Shown here: positions 22,981-48,865 of the stretch, piece after piece
Layout: each line of letters opens with the position of its first letter
Position numbering within the stretch: position 1 is the first letter of the stretch
Assembly (NCBI RefSeq): GCF_001552255.1
Contig: NZ_BCQV01000029.1
Location: 1-57,531, forward strand
Length of the DNA stretch: 57,531 nt
DNA from: Alicyclobacillus shizuokensis NBRC 103103
Lineage (GTDB): Bacteria > Bacillota > Bacilli > Alicyclobacillales > Alicyclobacillaceae
Reading direction: 5' to 3'
Translations under genes and position numbers: made by a program
Notes under the pieces: generated by a model
Database searches by the model: none
The model's input: the letters and a program-made list of their open reading frames with translations, nothing else
What the model was told of the DNA's origin: nothing

Positions 22981-23106
22981 TCACAGGTTGGCCGAGTGCG
23001 AGAAGGGAGTCGGCGGAACACACCCGTCGTTAGGCAGAATCACGAGCGCCGCCGCAAAGGCCGCGACCGTTGACAGAGCGGCAGCCAGACAGGCCAGTTT
23101 TTTCAT
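22981..23106 (-). CDS. Small secreted peptide precursor, candidate signalling peptide
   Basis: A 41-residue product: MKK, a hydrophobic Ala/Leu/Val helix (about 4-23), then a polar tail of about 17 residues (LPNDGCVPPTPFSHSANL). It looks like an export signal plus a short exported tail, as in Phr- or SHP-type pheromone precursors. The start ATG 23106 has an excellent SD (AAAGGGGTGA, 5 nt) and a strong terminator lies directly after the stop. Only 55 bp separate it from the divergent XRE/TPR regulator gene, the arrangement seen in rgg/shp pairs. Function is inferred from this context; no homologue is recognised. The tail motif SHSAN recalls THSVN in the peptide at 47.6 kb. Confidence 0.72.
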   Translation of the reverse strand: MKKLACLAAALSTVAAFAAALVILPNDGCVPPTPFSHSANL

Positions 23107-43648: not shown

Positions 43649-44324
43649 ATTCGTACAGTCCCTTTTGCTCGTCTCGGGCGATCCGCCCTTCTTCAATGGC
43701 AATGACACGCTTGCGCATCGTGTTGACAATGTCCCGGTTGTGCGTCGCCATCACGACGGTGGTACCTCGGTCATTAATGCGCTGAAACAGCTTCATAATG
43801 CCCCAGGAAGTGTCGGGGTCTAGATTGCCGGTCGGCTCGTCGGCGATGATGACGCTGGGGTTATTGACGAGCGCCCGCGCCACGGCCACCCGCTGCTGCT
43901 CCCCGCCAGAAAGCTGGGTGGGCAACACATCCGCCTTGTCCTCCAGCCCGACCCACGCGAGGGCTTCCGGGACGCGCCTGCGGATGTGCCGCTGCGGGGC
44001 CCCAATCACCTCCAAGGCAAACGCCACGTTCTCGTACGCGGTCAGCTTCGGCAACAACTTGAAGTCCTGAAACACCACACCAATGTGCCGCCTCAATAGA
44101 GGGATCTTCCGATGGCGCAGCCGTTCGATGTTAAACCCGTTCACAAAGATCTGCCCCTTGGTCGGCCGCTCCTCACGGTACATCAGCTTGATGAAGGTCG
44201 ATTTCCCAGCGCCGCTGGGCCCGACCACATAGACAAATTCACCTTTCTTGATATTTATCGTGATGCCGCTGAGCGCCATCGTCCCATTCGGGTATTGCTT
44301 CCAGACGTCCTGCATCTCAATCAC
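43638..44324 (-). CDS. ftsE: Cell-division ATP-binding protein FtsE
   Basis: A 228-residue ABC ATPase that drives FtsX to regulate cell-wall hydrolysis. Walker [10 protein letters not shown] (about 36-44), Q-loop [12 protein letters not shown], signature LSGGEQQR, Walker [12 protein letters not shown] and the switch His in MATHNRD are all intact. The sequence is close to the conserved FtsE type ([12 protein letters not shown]). Start GTG 44324, about 10 nt after GAGGAG; ATG 44315 is an alternative. Confidence 0.96.
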
Positions 44325-44498
44325 TCAGGCATCGCTCCTCGCAGAAGGGTCAGATCACTCGACGAGAATCGTGGATGATTGACAACCGGGTGCAATCCGG
44401 CTCCATTCATCGCGCGAGACCACGAGCGTTTACCCGCCGCGCCTTACCAGTTCGACACCGTGCGCCAAAAATCCTGTCGGGAATTGCTGTAAAGAAAT

Positions 44499-45242
44499 TC
44501 AATGGAGGCGTGTGAAGCCGGAGCGGATGGACCAGAGCACCGCCTGCGTGCGGTCGTTCACACCAAGCTTGCGGATCAACGTGGACCACATGCCACGCAC
44601 CGTCTTTTCCGTCACACCAAACACTTCGGCAATCGCCCGGTTGTTCAGTCCGTCGGTGGCCAGCTGCAGGAGCATCTGCTCCCGCTCATTCAAAGGTACG
44701 TCAATTTCTGCTGTGAACACGGCCTGATCCGGCCGTCGAATCTCAGCCAAGACCAACGGGGTCAGGTGAGTCTGGATGTACGCCTTCCCTTCCAGCACCG
44801 TGTTCACCGCCTGCTCCAGCACTTCGACCGGCGCCGTTTGAAACAGGTATGCGTCGGCGCCCCAGCGAAACGCCTGCACAATCACCGCCGCGTCGTCGGT
44901 CTCCGGAATCAGGTGGACGACCGCCAACTGCTGCCGCAATTGTCGAAGTTCGGCCATCAACCGCGGCGTCGTACGCGCGTTTGGCGTGATATCGGTGATG
45001 AGGATATCCATCAACTCGTCTTCCGGGCCTCGCAGCCCATGCAGGAGGTCTTCCAGGCCGTGAAACGAGTTCCCGGATTCAAAGTTCGGTCGCTGGGAAA
45101 ACAGGGACCTCACGGCGACATCAAACAGCGGATGGGTCATCAAAGTGTGAACGCGCACGCGGACCTTCGAAAAAACCGGCGCAGAGGCTGTAGACCCTTG
45201 ACGGGTGTGTGGGAGGGGTGGATGTCGCAGCAGGTAGTTCAT
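44499..45242 (-). CDS. LuxR-type regulator with degenerate receiver domain
   Basis: A 247-residue protein with a strong SD (AAGGAGG) at ATG 45242. The N-terminal 145 residues follow the receiver pattern of NarL/DegU regulators, but the acidic pair is replaced (VHTLMTHPLF where DDHPLF is usual) and the conserved Lys is Gln (AYLFQTAP). The acceptor-position Asp survives in ITDITPN. The C-terminal LuxR-type helix-turn-helix (about 183-245) is intact: LNEREQMLLQLATDG, then TEKTVRGMWSTLIRKL. It is probably not controlled by ordinary phosphorylation. It lies 61 nt downstream of the TPR/HD gene and appears to be the output of that operon. Confidence 0.85.
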   Translation of the reverse strand: MNYLLRHPPLPHTRQGSTASAPVFSKVRVRVHTLMTHPLFDVAVRSLFSQRPNFESGNSFHGLEDLLHGLRGPEDELMDILITDITPNARTTPRLMAELRQLRQQLAVVHLIPETDDAAVIVQAFRWGADAYLFQTAPVEVLEQAVNTVLEGKAYIQTHLTPLVLAEIRRPDQAVFTAEIDVPLNEREQMLLQLATDGLNNRAIAEVFGVTEKTVRGMWSTLIRKLGVNDRTQAVLWSIRSGFTRLH

Positions 45243-45303
45243 GTCATCCTCCTTCAGGTTCCATCTCGCCAGTTGATTGTGAGAAAGGATGCGATACCAG
45301 CAC

Positions 45304-46749
45304 TTATACCATCATCTGAGCGCGGAAAGATTCTACCACGCGCGGATCGTAGAGATGGTAGCGACTGGCTTCCAATTCTTGCATGGCCTCGTCATGGGAT
45401 AGTCCATACAGTTCCATGAGCTCCACGTAATCCAGCGACAAGCCGAGACACTCCGCCATCAACCGGTCTTCGTCGGTCAAGCCCGAGACGTCCGCGCCTT
45501 TACGGCAGGCCGGAATCAGATAGCGATAGTTTTCGCTGTGCGGATACGCCTCAAGCAGGCGCACACCAAGCTGCCCAATCTCAGGAATGGAAGAGCGGTC
45601 GCTGAGAATCGAGACAGCTTCCTCGTCGTTCGATGTCATGACGGTCAGCCCTAGGTACACGAGCCGTCCCGCCACCTGCAACCGCCGTATATCATCCCAC
45701 GCTGCGTCCGGCACGATCCGCTCGTACAACTGTGCCGCCAGGTTGGCCTCATACCGCGGCACATAGGACAGCCTCGGGAACATGGTCTCGAAGCTATCGA
45801 TGAGGCTCAACTCATCCAGAAACTGGTGCCAGAGCGGCCAATCAAAGGTGTCTTCGGGAATGACGATGTCACGCTGGCTGACCCAAGAATCGAAATCGCG
45901 GACCTTGAGCCACTCATTCCAGTAACAAGCCTGGCCCAAGTAAATTTCAGCCTTCTCAACACATCTTTTGCTCAAATCGGTTTGTCCAGCATAATGTGCA
46001 AATAATCCTATGAGATACAAGCTATCGGCCAACTTGACGTTCTCATTCGCCATCGAGTTGCCCCAAACATTGCGATAAAGTTCAGACGTATAGCGAATCG
46101 CCTCCATGGGACGTTCCAGAAACAGGTGCATACGTGCGATGCCTTGATAGGGCTCCGGCAGCGGCTCTACATCAGCCGCCTTGAGATAATAGTTCAGGGA
46201 CGTCGCATAATCCTCCAATGCTTCGGACGCGCACCCGGCATTGTAATATAGGAGACCCTCAACTACCTTTCTCAATCCAAGATCAGGAACCCTCGAAGCG
46301 AGGTCCAGTGCCCTGGGTATTTCAATCAGGACCTTCTCATATAACTCTGCCCTGATCAACGAGTAAATGTAAGAATTAAGTAACACTGACGACTCATACG
46401 GGATCTTTTCCGATACAAGCTGCAGAACCGAGTGACAAACCCGTAGGGCGACATCCTCGTGTCCTTCATATCCCAACGCATGAGCAAGGTTCGCCGTACT
46501 TTTTAACTTGATCCCGATGTATCCTTCGTCATCAGCGAATTGGTCGAGAAGGGAGATGGCTTCTTCATAATAGGGCCTGGCTGCATGCAGACTCTTCAGT
46601 CTTGATACAGCGGCTCCTGTAGAGTTTAGAAACGTGGCACGTGCAACAGAATTTTTCGCGTGAACAGCTTGTGTTTGGCAAATGTCTATGGCCGCGTAAT
46701 AATTTCCAATGGCGAAATGCCGGTACGCAATCTCCCACCAGCTACTCAT
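45304..46749 (-). CDS. TPR protein with C-terminal degenerate HD-GYP-like domain
   Basis: A 481-residue protein without a DNA-binding domain. Residues 1-280 are TPR-like helical pairs (AIDICQTQAVHAKN, YYEEAISLLDQFADD, SLYLIGLFAHYAGQTDLS). Residues about 329-478 follow the HD-GYP domain: ANLAAQLYERI, then RLQVAGRLVYLGL where the HD metal pair would be, then PEIGQLGVRLLEAYP, then KGADVSGLTDEDRL and the typical end LSHDEAMQELE and YDPRVVESF. All catalytic residues (HD, HHE, GYP) are absent, so no phosphodiesterase activity is expected. This reading is mine and unverified. Its ATG overlaps the kinase stop by 8 bp, so translation is coupled. A sensory or scaffold role is inferred. Confidence 0.75.
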   Translation of the reverse strand: MSSWWEIAYRHFAIGNYYAAIDICQTQAVHAKNSVARATFLNSTGAAVSRLKSLHAARPYYEEAISLLDQFADDEGYIGIKLKSTANLAHALGYEGHEDVALRVCHSVLQLVSEKIPYESSVLLNSYIYSLIRAELYEKVLIEIPRALDLASRVPDLGLRKVVEGLLYYNAGCASEALEDYATSLNYYLKAADVEPLPEPYQGIARMHLFLERPMEAIRYTSELYRNVWGNSMANENVKLADSLYLIGLFAHYAGQTDLSKRCVEKAEIYLGQACYWNEWLKVRDFDSWVSQRDIVIPEDTFDWPLWHQFLDELSLIDSFETMFPRLSYVPRYEANLAAQLYERIVPDAAWDDIRRLQVAGRLVYLGLTVMTSNDEEAVSILSDRSSIPEIGQLGVRLLEAYPHSENYRYLIPACRKGADVSGLTDEDRLMAECLGLSLDYVELMELYGLSHDEAMQELEASRYHLYDPRVVESFRAQMMV

Positions 46750-47389
46750 TACGATCGGCCACCTCGCAGATGACCTGCGTTCCGTGGCCGGGCTCGGACT
46801 GCACCGTCACGCGGCCACCCACTAACTCCATCCTCTCTTTCATGCCCTGCAAACCGTACGAAGTCGTTGACGTTTTGTCTGTCACGAATCCCACGCCGTC
46901 GTCTGTGACCAACGCTCTGTACAGGCCGTTTTCACGTTTCAATTCAATTTTGACTTTAGAGGCTTTAGCGTGCTTATGGATATTATTTAGAGCCTCCTGC
47001 ACGACCCGAAACATTGCCACAGCCACACTCCGGGACAGTTTTGGATTTTCCCATGAACACTGCACATCGATTGACAAGCCGGACATTTGGGAAAACCTCT
47101 CCGCGTAGAGTTGAATGGCATCCGAAACGCCCCGCTCTAAAAACGTTGGCCTTAGATCAAAGATGAGTCTTCTCACATCATTCATTGCCGTTCGCAGCAT
47201 CATCTGGAGTCGCTCAATCTCACGCACTGACTCCTCCACGCGTCCGCTTTCAAGCATCCGCTTGGTAACTTCGAGTCGCATGGTGACATTTGTCAGACTT
47301 TGGGCCGGCCCGTCGTGGATATCTCGGGCTACGCGCTTCCGCTCTTCTTCCAATAACTCTATCGTCCGTTCCGAGCTAAAAGTCTCCAC
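46742..47389 (-). CDS. Soluble sensorless histidine kinase (DegS-like, HisKA_3)
   Basis: A 215-residue kinase consisting only of the dimerisation/phospho-acceptor and ATPase domains. HisKA_3 is LLEEERKRVARDIHDGPAQS with the acceptor His at about 24-27. The HATPase has VVQEALNNIHKHAKASKV, TDDGVGF, YGLQGMKERMELVGG and GTQVICEV. There is no membrane segment or recognisable input domain, so input must come from a partner, most likely the coupled TPR/HD protein. GTG 47389 has AGGGGT 7 nt upstream; GTG 47395 is too close to it. It is divergent from a secreted-peptide gene. Confidence 0.88.
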   Translation of the reverse strand: METFSSERTIELLEEERKRVARDIHDGPAQSLTNVTMRLEVTKRMLESGRVEESVREIERLQMMLRTAMNDVRRLIFDLRPTFLERGVSDAIQLYAERFSQMSGLSIDVQCSWENPKLSRSVAVAMFRVVQEALNNIHKHAKASKVKIELKRENGLYRALVTDDGVGFVTDKTSTTSYGLQGMKERMELVGGRVTVQSEPGHGTQVICEVADRNE

Positions 47390-47489
47390 AGCCACACCCC
47401 TGACGCGATATCAATTACACCTTCTCGCATCAAACCATCACATCCCTATCATAACCGAAAAACAATCTTGAAGAAATCTCACACCAACA

Positions 47490-47519
47490 TTGACAATTAT
47501 CCAGACTGATAGCTAAAAT
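47490..47519 (+). promoter_or_regulatory. Promoter of the 49-residue peptide gene
   Basis: Perfect -35 TTGACA (47490-47495), 18-bp spacer, -10 TAAAAT (47514-47519, 5/6). Transcription would begin about 64 nt before the start codon. It is one of the best sigma-A promoters in the window. Confidence 0.75.
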
Positions 47520-47589
47520 CATCCACAAGGAAGTTCGACACATTTCTCGATTCATGTGAGGCCCGGGGGGCAAAAGAGGTGACAGTTCT

Positions 47590-47739
47590 ATGAAAAAACT
47601 ATTGGCGTTGGTTTCCGTAGTAGTGACGCTATCGGCTATCGCCCCGATCACAATTACGGCTCTTTCTACTACATTGTCCGTTGATTCGACTCACTCAGTT
47701 AATCCTAATTCCAATCCTGGCGGAATATCGTACTTCTAA
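47590..47739 (+). CDS. Small secreted peptide precursor, candidate signalling peptide
   Basis: A 49-residue product: MKK, a hydrophobic signal helix (LLALVSVVVTLSAIAPI), a signal-peptidase-like site after ITITA, then a 25-residue polar Ser/Asn/Pro/Gly-rich tail ending NSNPGGISYF. There are no cysteines in the tail, unlike most bacteriocins. A strong promoter, the SD AGAGGTGA and a perfect terminator make it a complete single-gene transcription unit, although it is too short for most gene finders. It is divergent from the kinase-TPR/HD-LuxR operon. A pheromone-like role is inferred; an antimicrobial or other secreted peptide is possible. Confidence 0.75.
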   Translation: MKKLLALVSVVVTLSAIAPITITALSTTLSVDSTHSVNPNSNPGGISYF

Positions 47740-47803
47740 GACGCCCTACGGGATCTTACGTTGCCGCAGCTCTAATCAACACTAGGCCGTTCACCCCGGG
47801 AGC

Positions 47804-47841
47804 ACACCCAGGCGGCAAGCGGTTTCGCCTGGGTGTTTTTG
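47804..47841 (+). terminator. Rho-independent terminator of the 49-residue peptide gene
   Basis: Perfect 11-bp stem ACACCCAGGCG / CGCCTGGGTGT with an 11-nt loop, followed by TTTTTG. It lies 64 nt after the stop codon of the peptide gene. Confidence 0.95.
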
Positions 47842-47917
47842 TCGTCTGCCGTCGAAAGTTCGCGATGCGTGACGCCGTCCTGACAGCCCACGCGCGCTTA
47901 CCGATTGCCGCCGTGTC

Positions 47918-48865
47918 TCACTCGGCGTCTTTTCCTGCGTCTCCTTTGTTTGCCGCGGTTTTCAAGGCACCCAGCGCCCCCAGGACGCCGACAGCCTCCG
48001 ATGGGATGAACAGCGTCGTGGCCGATCCGTTCGCCATCCCCTGCAGTGCCTCAAACGACTGATACGTCAGCACATTGGCGTCCAATTGCGCCTGGCGAAT
48101 CATCTCGATACGGTTGCGCTCCGCCTCCGCGACCAAGCGAATGGCCTGAGCGCGCCCTTCCGCCTCCAGGCGCTGCGCTTCACGCACGCCCTCTGCCTCG
48201 CGAATTCGCGACTCCCGCAGCCCTTCCGCGCGCAGGATGGCGCTCTGCTTTTCACCCTCGGCCTTGAGAATCGCCGCCTGGCGCTCACCTTCCGCCTGCA
48301 GGATGTTCGCCCGCTTTTCGCGTTCCGCCTTCATCTGTTTCTCCATGGCATCCTGGATCTCCGCCGGCGGTTTGATGTCGACCACTTCAACGCGGTCGAT
48401 GCGGACGCCCCACGACTCGGTCACCTCGTCGAGGGCGGTGCGCAGTGCCATGCTGATCTTGTCACGGCCAGCCAGCGTCTCGTCTAGCTCCATATGACCG
48501 ACCACCTGGCGAATGTTGGCGGCGGTGATGTTCTGAATGGCTTGCACCACATTGGCGATGTTGTAAGTCGCCGTGCGCGCGTCGATAATGGTATAGAAAA
48601 ACACCGTGTCAATCTGAATCTGCACATTGTCCTTCGTGATCACCATCTGCGGCGGCACGACGACCTGCTGCGTACGCAGGTCAACCATGCGCACCACGCG
48701 GTCGATAAACGGGATAATCAGGTTCACGCCCGGCTGCAAGGTCGCGTGATACTTGCCCAGGCGCTCCACAATCGCCAGGCGCTGCTGCGGGATGATGCGG
48801 ATGCCGCGCACGATGAGCAGCACCACCAGCACAACCAAGATCAGGACGACTATCGTACCGACCAT
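47918..48865 (-). CDS. SPFH/stomatin-family membrane protein (paraslipin/QmcA type)
   Basis: A 315-residue protein. An N-terminal membrane anchor (about 3-20) is followed by the SPFH domain (about 22-180: RIIPQQRLAIVERLGKYH, LRTQQVVVPPQMVITKDNV) and an Ala/Glu/Arg-rich coiled coil (about 190-260, repeated AEGxR units). The C-terminal segment resembles slipin/paraslipin oligomerisation regions. Such proteins form membrane scaffolds and usually pair with NfeD proteins, as here. ATG 48865 follows GGGGCAGGG. Confidence 0.94.
   Translation of the reverse strand: MVGTIVVLILVVLVVLLIVRGIRIIPQQRLAIVERLGKYHATLQPGVNLIIPFIDRVVRMVDLRTQQVVVPPQMVITKDNVQIQIDTVFFYTIIDARTATYNIANVVQAIQNITAANIRQVVGHMELDETLAGRDKISMALRTALDEVTESWGVRIDRVEVVDIKPPAEIQDAMEKQMKAEREKRANILQAEGERQAAILKAEGEKQSAILRAEGLRESRIREAEGVREAQRLEAEGRAQAIRLVAEAERNRIEMIRQAQLDANVLTYQSFEALQGMANGSATTLFIPSEAVGVLGALGALKTAANKGDAGKDAE

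Follow-up and report, generated by a model that had tools for sequence, protein, structure and literature searches.

A candidate peptide signalling cassette of Alicyclobacillus shizuokensis and its relatives, comprising a secreted propeptide, a sensorless histidine kinase and a TPR/degenerate HD-GYP protein

The contig NZ_BCQV01000029.1 of Alicyclobacillus shizuokensis NBRC 103103 (GCF_001552255.1), analysed over its whole length of 57,531 nucleotides (nt) and referred to here as the window, harbors four genes, namely, those for a small secreted propeptide, a histidine kinase lacking a sensor domain, a protein with tetratricopeptide repeats (TPR) and a degenerate HD-GYP domain, and a LuxR-type regulator. 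A model reading the DNA letters alone (the original prediction) had proposed them as a peptide-linked signalling system, and all four were found where it had placed them. The features of the locus are as follows.

47490–47519, plus strand: promoter-like site of the peptide gene, TTGACA-N18-TAAAAT, 11 of 12 positions matching
47590–47739, plus strand: gene of the secreted propeptide, 49 codons, recognized by its coding pattern and by its family, with 30 adjoining members in the order
47804–47841, plus strand: intrinsic terminator 3' of the peptide gene, 12-bp outer stem and T-run
46742–47395, minus strand: sensorless cytosolic histidine kinase, HisKA_3 and HATPase_c, 217 amino acids
45304–46749, minus strand: TPR/degenerate HD-GYP protein, proposed peptide receptor, 481 residues
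45880–46749, minus strand: TPR-repeat part of the putative receptor, residues ~1–290, boundaries approximate
45307–45762, minus strand: degenerate HD-GYP part with motif residues lost, residues ~330–481, boundaries approximate
44499–45242, minus strand: LuxR/NarL-type regulator with a pseudo-receiver that retains the Asp but not the acidic pair or the Lys
46001–47800, no strand: divergent island of low G+C content, proposed specificity cassette, delimited by identity to A. kakegawensis and by G+C

The kinase and TPR genes overlap by 8 bp, and 61 nt separate the TPR gene from the luxR gene. The kinase showed HisKA_3 (from residue 18) and HATPase_c with nothing else above the Pfam cut-offs, in agreement with the claim that it has no sensor domain. 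No membrane-like segment was found in it, and the catalytic His and the checked ATP-site residues were intact. The promoter claimed for the peptide gene could be located but did not rise above chance, as three sites of such quality were found in the scan against 2.0 expected, and hexamers alone are no proof. Similarly, the terminator described as perfect does have its stem and T-run, and its hairpin is common to A. kakegawensis, but its folding energy was not unusual against shuffled sequences (z −0.59) and the automated terminator scan, with a loop limit of 8, did not list it.

A single-sequence search for the TPR protein gave many weak matches (28 of 61 genomes), and a profile search was used instead. 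It revealed the full-length family at 38 loci in 32 of the 59 genomes of the window's order, with E values of 5e-51 or better against 1e-22 for the next matches. For a class sample of 200 genomes, at least 16 of them from the window's own taxonomic family, the best outside that family among the matches listed was partial (E 5e-27). An identical arrangement, with a TPR protein of 75% identity, is present in A. kakegawensis NBRC 103104 of the same genus (locus L031). A sensorless HisKA_3 kinase lies directly upstream of the TPR gene at 33 of 36 evaluable loci, the count leaving out L061, interrupted by a gene that appeared transposase-like by eye, and L121, cut by a contig end. A small secreted-peptide gene with a basic start, a hydrophobic core and a ribosome-binding site adjoins at 30 of 35 loci, after exclusion of L036, L061 and L121. 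The search for the four genes in related genomes, suggested in the original prediction, was therefore favorable, and the conservation of the peptide gene with the operon, on which that prediction had been made to depend, was not refuted. The window clade received support values of 100/100 in the tree, whose midpoint root leaves the direction of evolution undecided. Genome G001 (L037), which belongs to the same genus as the window, has the system solely in the version of the other clade, including a riboswitch, a same-strand peptide gene and different neighbours.

The catalytic His and the ATP-binding residues were conserved in 23 of the 24 aligned kinases. The exception, at L039 (9069–9719, minus strand), has neither, and the peptide gene, the riboswitch and the TPR gene are retained at this locus. 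At three further loci, representing two lineages (L042 and L049 of one genus, and L054), the kinase is absent and the peptide and TPR genes are still neighbours. As the peptide stays with the TPR gene where no kinase is present, and the L039 kinase lacks catalytic residues, the TPR protein appears to be the steady partner of the peptide. Hence, it is likely that the TPR protein, rather than the kinase, is the receptor of the peptide, and the three kinase-free loci support the earlier guess that the TPR protein is the sensor.

The window propeptide starts with Lys-Lys followed by a hydrophobic core, and consists of an export signal (about residues 1–26) and a variable C-terminal part; the mature pheromone is presumed to lie within its last ~12 residues. 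Members of the peptide family are 44–73 residues long, mostly with an AxA-like cleavage site, as judged by eye, and with a Ser/Thr-rich middle; examples of their short tails are ..PIWD, ..LPIVVE, ..HDGWRTAL and ..DGMVLIW. Comparison of the window peptide open reading frame (ORF) with that of A. kakegawensis showed 18 of 19 one-base-changed codons to be synonymous (0.27 expected), and 21 further codons differed at two or three bases. A coding pattern was observed in all seven pairs of peptide ORFs compared, the weakest being L046/L047 (p 0.018). When fixed criteria, chosen after the first peptides had been examined, were applied to 32 test genes (L033, L036 and L118–L121 left out), 21 of them had a peptide ORF ahead on the same strand, as did 4 of the 228 controls (Fisher p 3e-19). 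Peptide and kinase genes run divergently in the window, L032, L035 and L155, the last of which gene order identifies as the partner contig of L033; in the first two of these, the peptide gene has its own terminator. In the other clade, it starts within ~550 nt upstream of the kinase operon on the same strand, and sites with a hairpin plus T residues follow it in 15 of 26 same-strand loci, a count made without a shuffle control.

In most relatives, the peptide gene is preceded by a cyclic di-GMP (c-di-GMP) riboswitch. Of the order's 30 loci with a peptide gene, 28 have a c-di-GMP-I aptamer (Rfam RF01051 or RF03167) on the strand of that gene, at a distance of 21–36 nt from the start codon in 27 loci and of 83 nt in L035, the distances for L042 and L064 being taken from the listed ORF positions. 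In L035 and L155, where peptide and kinase genes diverge, the aptamer goes with the peptide and not with the kinase. Of the 30 loci, only those of the window and A. kakegawensis lack an aptamer; the window showed no aptamer match at the gathering cut-off, and none at E ≤ 10 within 44300–48500. The riboswitch on the peptide genes of relatives is a new finding, unreported in the original prediction, and the window is without it. At L119 and L120, it is the kinase gene that has the switch ahead of it, and no peptide gene was found. The number of c-di-GMP-I aptamers per genome of the order ranges from 0 to 20. Among 30 aptamer loci in nine genomes (two under the family cut-off), a small secreted-looking ORF follows in three; two of these are the present system, and the third (L135, genome G017) is doubtful. 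In 25 of 26 leaders, scored without a shuffle control, the bases after the aptamer can form 3–6 bp with a downstream GG stretch that is as a rule the ribosome-binding site. The pairing takes the forms C-C-C/G-G-G and C-C-T/A-G-G, with L054 scored in another register, and hints at possible translational control by the riboswitch. Among the papers listed, judged by their titles and the openings of their abstracts, none was noticed that connects a c-di-GMP-I switch with a pheromone gene.

Further c-di-GMP-I riboswitches were observed near the cassette. In L118 (1708–4132), a second one precedes genes for a FapA-like protein and a stand-alone receiver, and additional aptamers occur in L037, L040, L048, L051, L060 and L063. 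In L043, L046, L047 and L056, a LuxR-type gene (helix-turn-helix (HTH) only in L047) lies upstream of the cassette on the other strand with a further c-di-GMP-I riboswitch just beyond, and a KaiC-like ATPase was confirmed in L043.

The TPR/HD-GYP family was analysed in an alignment (A1) of the window protein and 23 relatives. Taken alone, the window protein gave weak TPR matches in Pfam, starting at residue 11, and no HD match. TPR matches were obtained in all 24 members, the fold being modelled at a pLDDT of only 50.6, and the C-terminal domain matched HD_5 in 19 of the 24 (best 4e-23). The HD-GYP-like domain of L047 matched the HD-GYP phosphodiesterases of PDB entries 5z7c, 4mcw and 4r8z. 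All 24 members have another residue in place of the first His of the HD dyad. The HHE residues and a later Asp are kept in 17–19 members, and in the window clade (5 of 5) the dyad Asp, both HHE His and the later Asp are also gone. The earlier description of a dead HD-GYP domain is in agreement with these results, as the window protein is devoid of the HD dyad and the HHE residues, and its homology is given by the 19 relatives matching HD_5. No HTH family was present among the 25 Pfam families shown (33 in all) for the 24 members, and the window protein, with a TPR match beginning at residue 11, has no room for an N-terminal effector domain.

The receiver of the window LuxR-type regulator has lost the acidic pair and the Lys, and it retains the phospho-acceptor Asp (LITDITP). 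This part of the original prediction was confirmed, and the same pattern was seen in L032, L033 and L035; as a general feature of the system it did not hold, since a neighbouring LuxR-type gene with a degenerate receiver was seen in four of the five loci of the window clade (not in L034) and only in that clade. In a distant genus, a NarL-type regulator follows the cassette instead (3 of 3 loci: L119, L120 and L121). The L119 regulator has an intact receiver, and those of L121 and L120 are its homologues, the L120 copy comprising the first 53 residues before the contig end.

Alignment of 13 kb with A. kakegawensis revealed an island that the original prediction had not reported and that is newly found here. 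The identity was 75–100% in steps of 200 bases, except for nine successive steps of the 65 (46001–47800), where it fell to 52–72%. This sharply bounded 1.8-kb island spans the peptide gene, the intergenic promoters, the kinase gene and the part of the TPR gene that encodes the N-terminal ~250 residues, ending within that gene. Its G+C content of 0.496 compares with 0.616 for the whole window, in which just one of 279 overlapping 1.8-kb stretches had a lower value. Synonymous differences were close to saturation, with a proportion (pS) of 0.80–0.93, in the peptide, in TPR residues 1–180 and in the kinase over its first three quarters, and pS was 0.57 for the last quarter of the kinase; outside the island, it was 0.13 for luxR, 0.04 for ftsE and 0.25 for the SPFH gene. 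At the protein level, identity of the peptide is 73% over the export signal and 48% beyond it, and the TPR protein is 54% identical over residues 1–195 and 90% over the remainder (92–97% over residues 301–480). The island resembles the exchangeable specificity cassettes of peptide quorum sensing, and from this one species pair we infer that it may be an exchanged pherotype or specificity cassette.

Beyond the order, a search of 299 genomes of the phylum gave the family at E 1e-35 or better in three genomes besides the window's own. In one of these, G396 (L160), riboswitch, peptide, kinase and TPR genes are placed in the same order as in the cassette. G396 and 13 of 40 surrounding genomes carry the family (14 loci), and peptide, kinase and TPR genes are together, here in a distant taxonomic family, in 11 of the 14 (L160, L207–L214, L217 and L218), the TPR gene of L208 having an internal stop; of the others, L219 has a separate layout, and L215 and L216 run into contig ends. 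Of the 11, five (L160 and L208–L211) have the riboswitch 30–31 nt ahead of the peptide gene, no aptamer was found in L207 and L212–L214, and in L217 and L218 the aptamer is more than 2 kb away. In the second layout, present in G254 (L162, 131–2083) and G567 (L219, 3856–5750), a riboswitch is followed by the TPR protein gene and then by a small secreted ORF. Both TPR proteins have an intact HD motif and HHERxDGxG, and no kinase was seen. This layout could possibly represent a peptide-controlled c-di-GMP phosphodiesterase. A profile of L162 and L219 matched only G254 and G451 at 1e-65 among 398 phylum genomes; G567 was absent from the matches and evidently lies outside the sample, and the second layout is represented by two genomes. 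G451 (L161) has a kinase and a TPR protein with a changed HD motif. The two loci of the second layout suggest that the cassette may descend from a peptide-gated c-di-GMP phosphodiesterase, the phosphodiesterase having come first and the kinase later.

It is quite probable that these genes form a peptide signalling cassette of pheromone, TPR receptor and sensorless kinase, working in a manner similar to the RRNPPA and ComQXPA systems and belonging to neither. The support, drawn from sequence, covers the linkage, the riboswitch, the coding pattern of the peptides, the loss of catalytic residues and the island. Export of the propeptide by Sec would be followed by removal of its signal sequence and by trimming, and the resulting short C-terminal pheromone would re-enter through an oligopeptide permease (Opp); the nine OppA-type (SBP_bac_5) binding proteins of the window genome are permissive for such import only. 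The pheromone would then bind the TPR superhelix of the 481-residue protein, as suggested by the conserved linkage, the kinase-free loci and the shared divergent island. The bound and free receptor may act differently on the kinase encoded by the overlapping gene, so that the TPR protein would replace the missing sensor domain. The output would pass to a response regulator, namely, the co-encoded LuxR protein in the window clade and an unlinked regulator where none is adjacent. The altered receiver of the LuxR protein suggests control by protein contact and not by ordinary phosphorylation. In most relatives, the riboswitch on the propeptide gene probably ties signal production to the c-di-GMP level, and the window lineage has lost this switch. 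The degenerate HD-GYP domain may be what is left of an ancestral arrangement with a c-di-GMP phosphodiesterase under direct control of the peptide.

RRNPPA receptors (Rap, NprR, PlcR, Rgg, PrgX and AimR) are described in excerpts of PMC9765709 as having TPR repeats behind an HTH or a three-helix bundle, with 5–9 TPR motifs forming the peptide-binding domain and the mature peptide re-imported by Opp. The cassette is similar to these in having a propeptide gene beside that of a soluble TPR protein (usually with the kinase gene between), a signal sequence, a pheromone presumed to be at the C-terminus, and oligopeptide-permease binding proteins in the genome. It differs in that its TPR repeats occupy the N-terminus and precede a degenerate HD-GYP domain, with no HTH found and no N-terminal effector domain, in the dedicated sensorless kinase of the operon, and in the c-di-GMP riboswitch on the peptide gene of relatives. 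As no HTH or three-helix bundle precedes the TPR repeats, the cassette was not grouped with RRNPPA, though it probably works alike.

ComP, the kinase of ComQXPA, is of the HisKA_3 class. A peptide, a histidine kinase, a response regulator and a polymorphic locus are common to ComQXPA and the cassette, whereas the cassette kinase lacks a membrane sensor domain and has a TPR protein in its place. The ComQXPA locus of Bacillus is reported in excerpts of PMC4008528 to be highly polymorphic, with the lowest diversity in ComA. No ComQ-like polyprenyl-synthase gene was found in the window, and of the two polyprenyl_synt (PF00348) matches in the genome neither is on the window's contig. Owing to the lack of a membrane sensor and of this gene in the window, the cassette is not ComQXPA. 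Compared with two-component systems of the HisKA_3/NarL type, the kinase residues are present, and an intact receiver is absent in the window, L032, L033 and L035 and present in L119. The family resembles HD-GYP phosphodiesterases in its HD_5 matches and in the intact HD and HHE motifs of L162 and L219, but the first dyad His is lost from all 24 members aligned in A1, and from the window protein also the HHE residues, the dyad Asp and the later Asp. Among genes under c-di-GMP-I riboswitches (RF01051, RF03167), the target in the cassette is a secreted propeptide, the window itself being without the switch. No such signalling system was noticed among the papers listed, at the level of titles and abstract openings apart from the two papers cited here.

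Several observations weigh against this reading. No peptide gene was found in five of the 35 evaluable loci of the order (L034, L053, L057, L119 and L120), nor in L161, and the peptide criteria were set after the fact. On the opposite strand, the layout of the window, a peptide ORF was found for 3 of 32 test genes and 13 of 228 control genes, which is not above the control level, so that the case for this layout rests on the conserved gene order in four genomes. Distances between peptides and between TPR proteins were correlated (Mantel) with a rho of 0.40 for the last 10 residues, 0.16 for the last 6 and 0.53 for the export signal; as the C-terminus does not exceed the export signal in this correlation, co-inheritance alone could explain it. 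The AlphaFold model, built from two sequences (the window and A. kakegawensis TPR proteins), was unusable at its pLDDT. In most loci, no adjacent response regulator was seen. The island is known from one species pair, and none comparable was present when three further close pairs with identical or nearly identical peptide tails were examined; in the L045/L064 pair, low-identity stretches lay outside genes and at the C-terminus of the TPR protein.

Among the alternatives, the peptide could be an effector, antimicrobial or acting at the surface, under c-di-GMP control, with the kinase and TPR protein regulating its production or immunity without any sensing. A riboswitch-controlled secreted product beside a regulator would fit this as well, as would the great variation of the peptides in length and sequence. 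However, the peptide gene remains with the TPR gene where the kinase is absent, and the island takes in the TPR repeats and ends inside the TPR gene, as would be anticipated for a receptor rather than for a protein with a purely regulatory role. Nor could a gene for immunity, modification or export be recognised by eye in the ORF lists, which were partly cut short, no dedicated search having been made, and the effector explanation is considered unlikely. There is a similarly slim chance that c-di-GMP itself is sensed by the degenerate HD-GYP domain, the peptide being a co-located downstream product and the kinase c-di-GMP-responsive. The retention of the HHE residues and the later Asp in most members and the presence of the riboswitch would agree with this, but none of the 24 aligned members has the first His of the HD motif, and four of the five window-clade loci keep peptide, kinase and TPR genes even though both HHE His, the dyad Asp and the later Asp are lost in all five. 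Moreover, the fast-diverging part of the protein is the TPR repeats and not the HD-GYP region, which is nearly unchanged between the sister species. The small ORF being a leader or attenuator of the kinase operon, as its same-strand position and the hairpins after it in the other clade might indicate, is highly improbable and was rejected on the divergent copies of the peptide gene, two with their own terminator, along with the coding pattern in all seven pairs compared and the secreted ORF downstream of the TPR gene in L162 and L219.

Returning to the peptide signalling cassette, we incline slightly towards a fuller scheme, in which c-di-GMP would set pheromone production through the riboswitch, and the TPR receptor would derive from a peptide-gated phosphodiesterase, with motifs still intact in L162 and L219, whose output was later passed to the sensorless kinase. 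Peptide, kinase and TPR repeats would be exchanged as a pherotype cassette, the regulator being constant. If true, this would add a layout with a soluble receptor and a soluble kinase to the membrane-kinase and RRNPPA types of peptide quorum sensing, and a riboswitch would directly wire the sessile/motile second messenger to pheromone making. Defined C-terminal sequences are available from the propeptides, and a peptide-controlled phosphodiesterase could be tested for at the two loci that lack a kinase and have their HD-GYP motifs intact.

Two further observations were made in the window genome. A 41-codon secreted-looking ORF is located at 22981–23106 of the window (minus strand), upstream of a phosphoglucomutase-type gene. 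On contig C14 (L122, 5741–7183), a 480-residue protein with HTH-like and TPR-like parts, RRNPPA-like by eye, is encoded beside genes that appeared, also by eye, similar to spoIIAA, spoIIAB and sigF.

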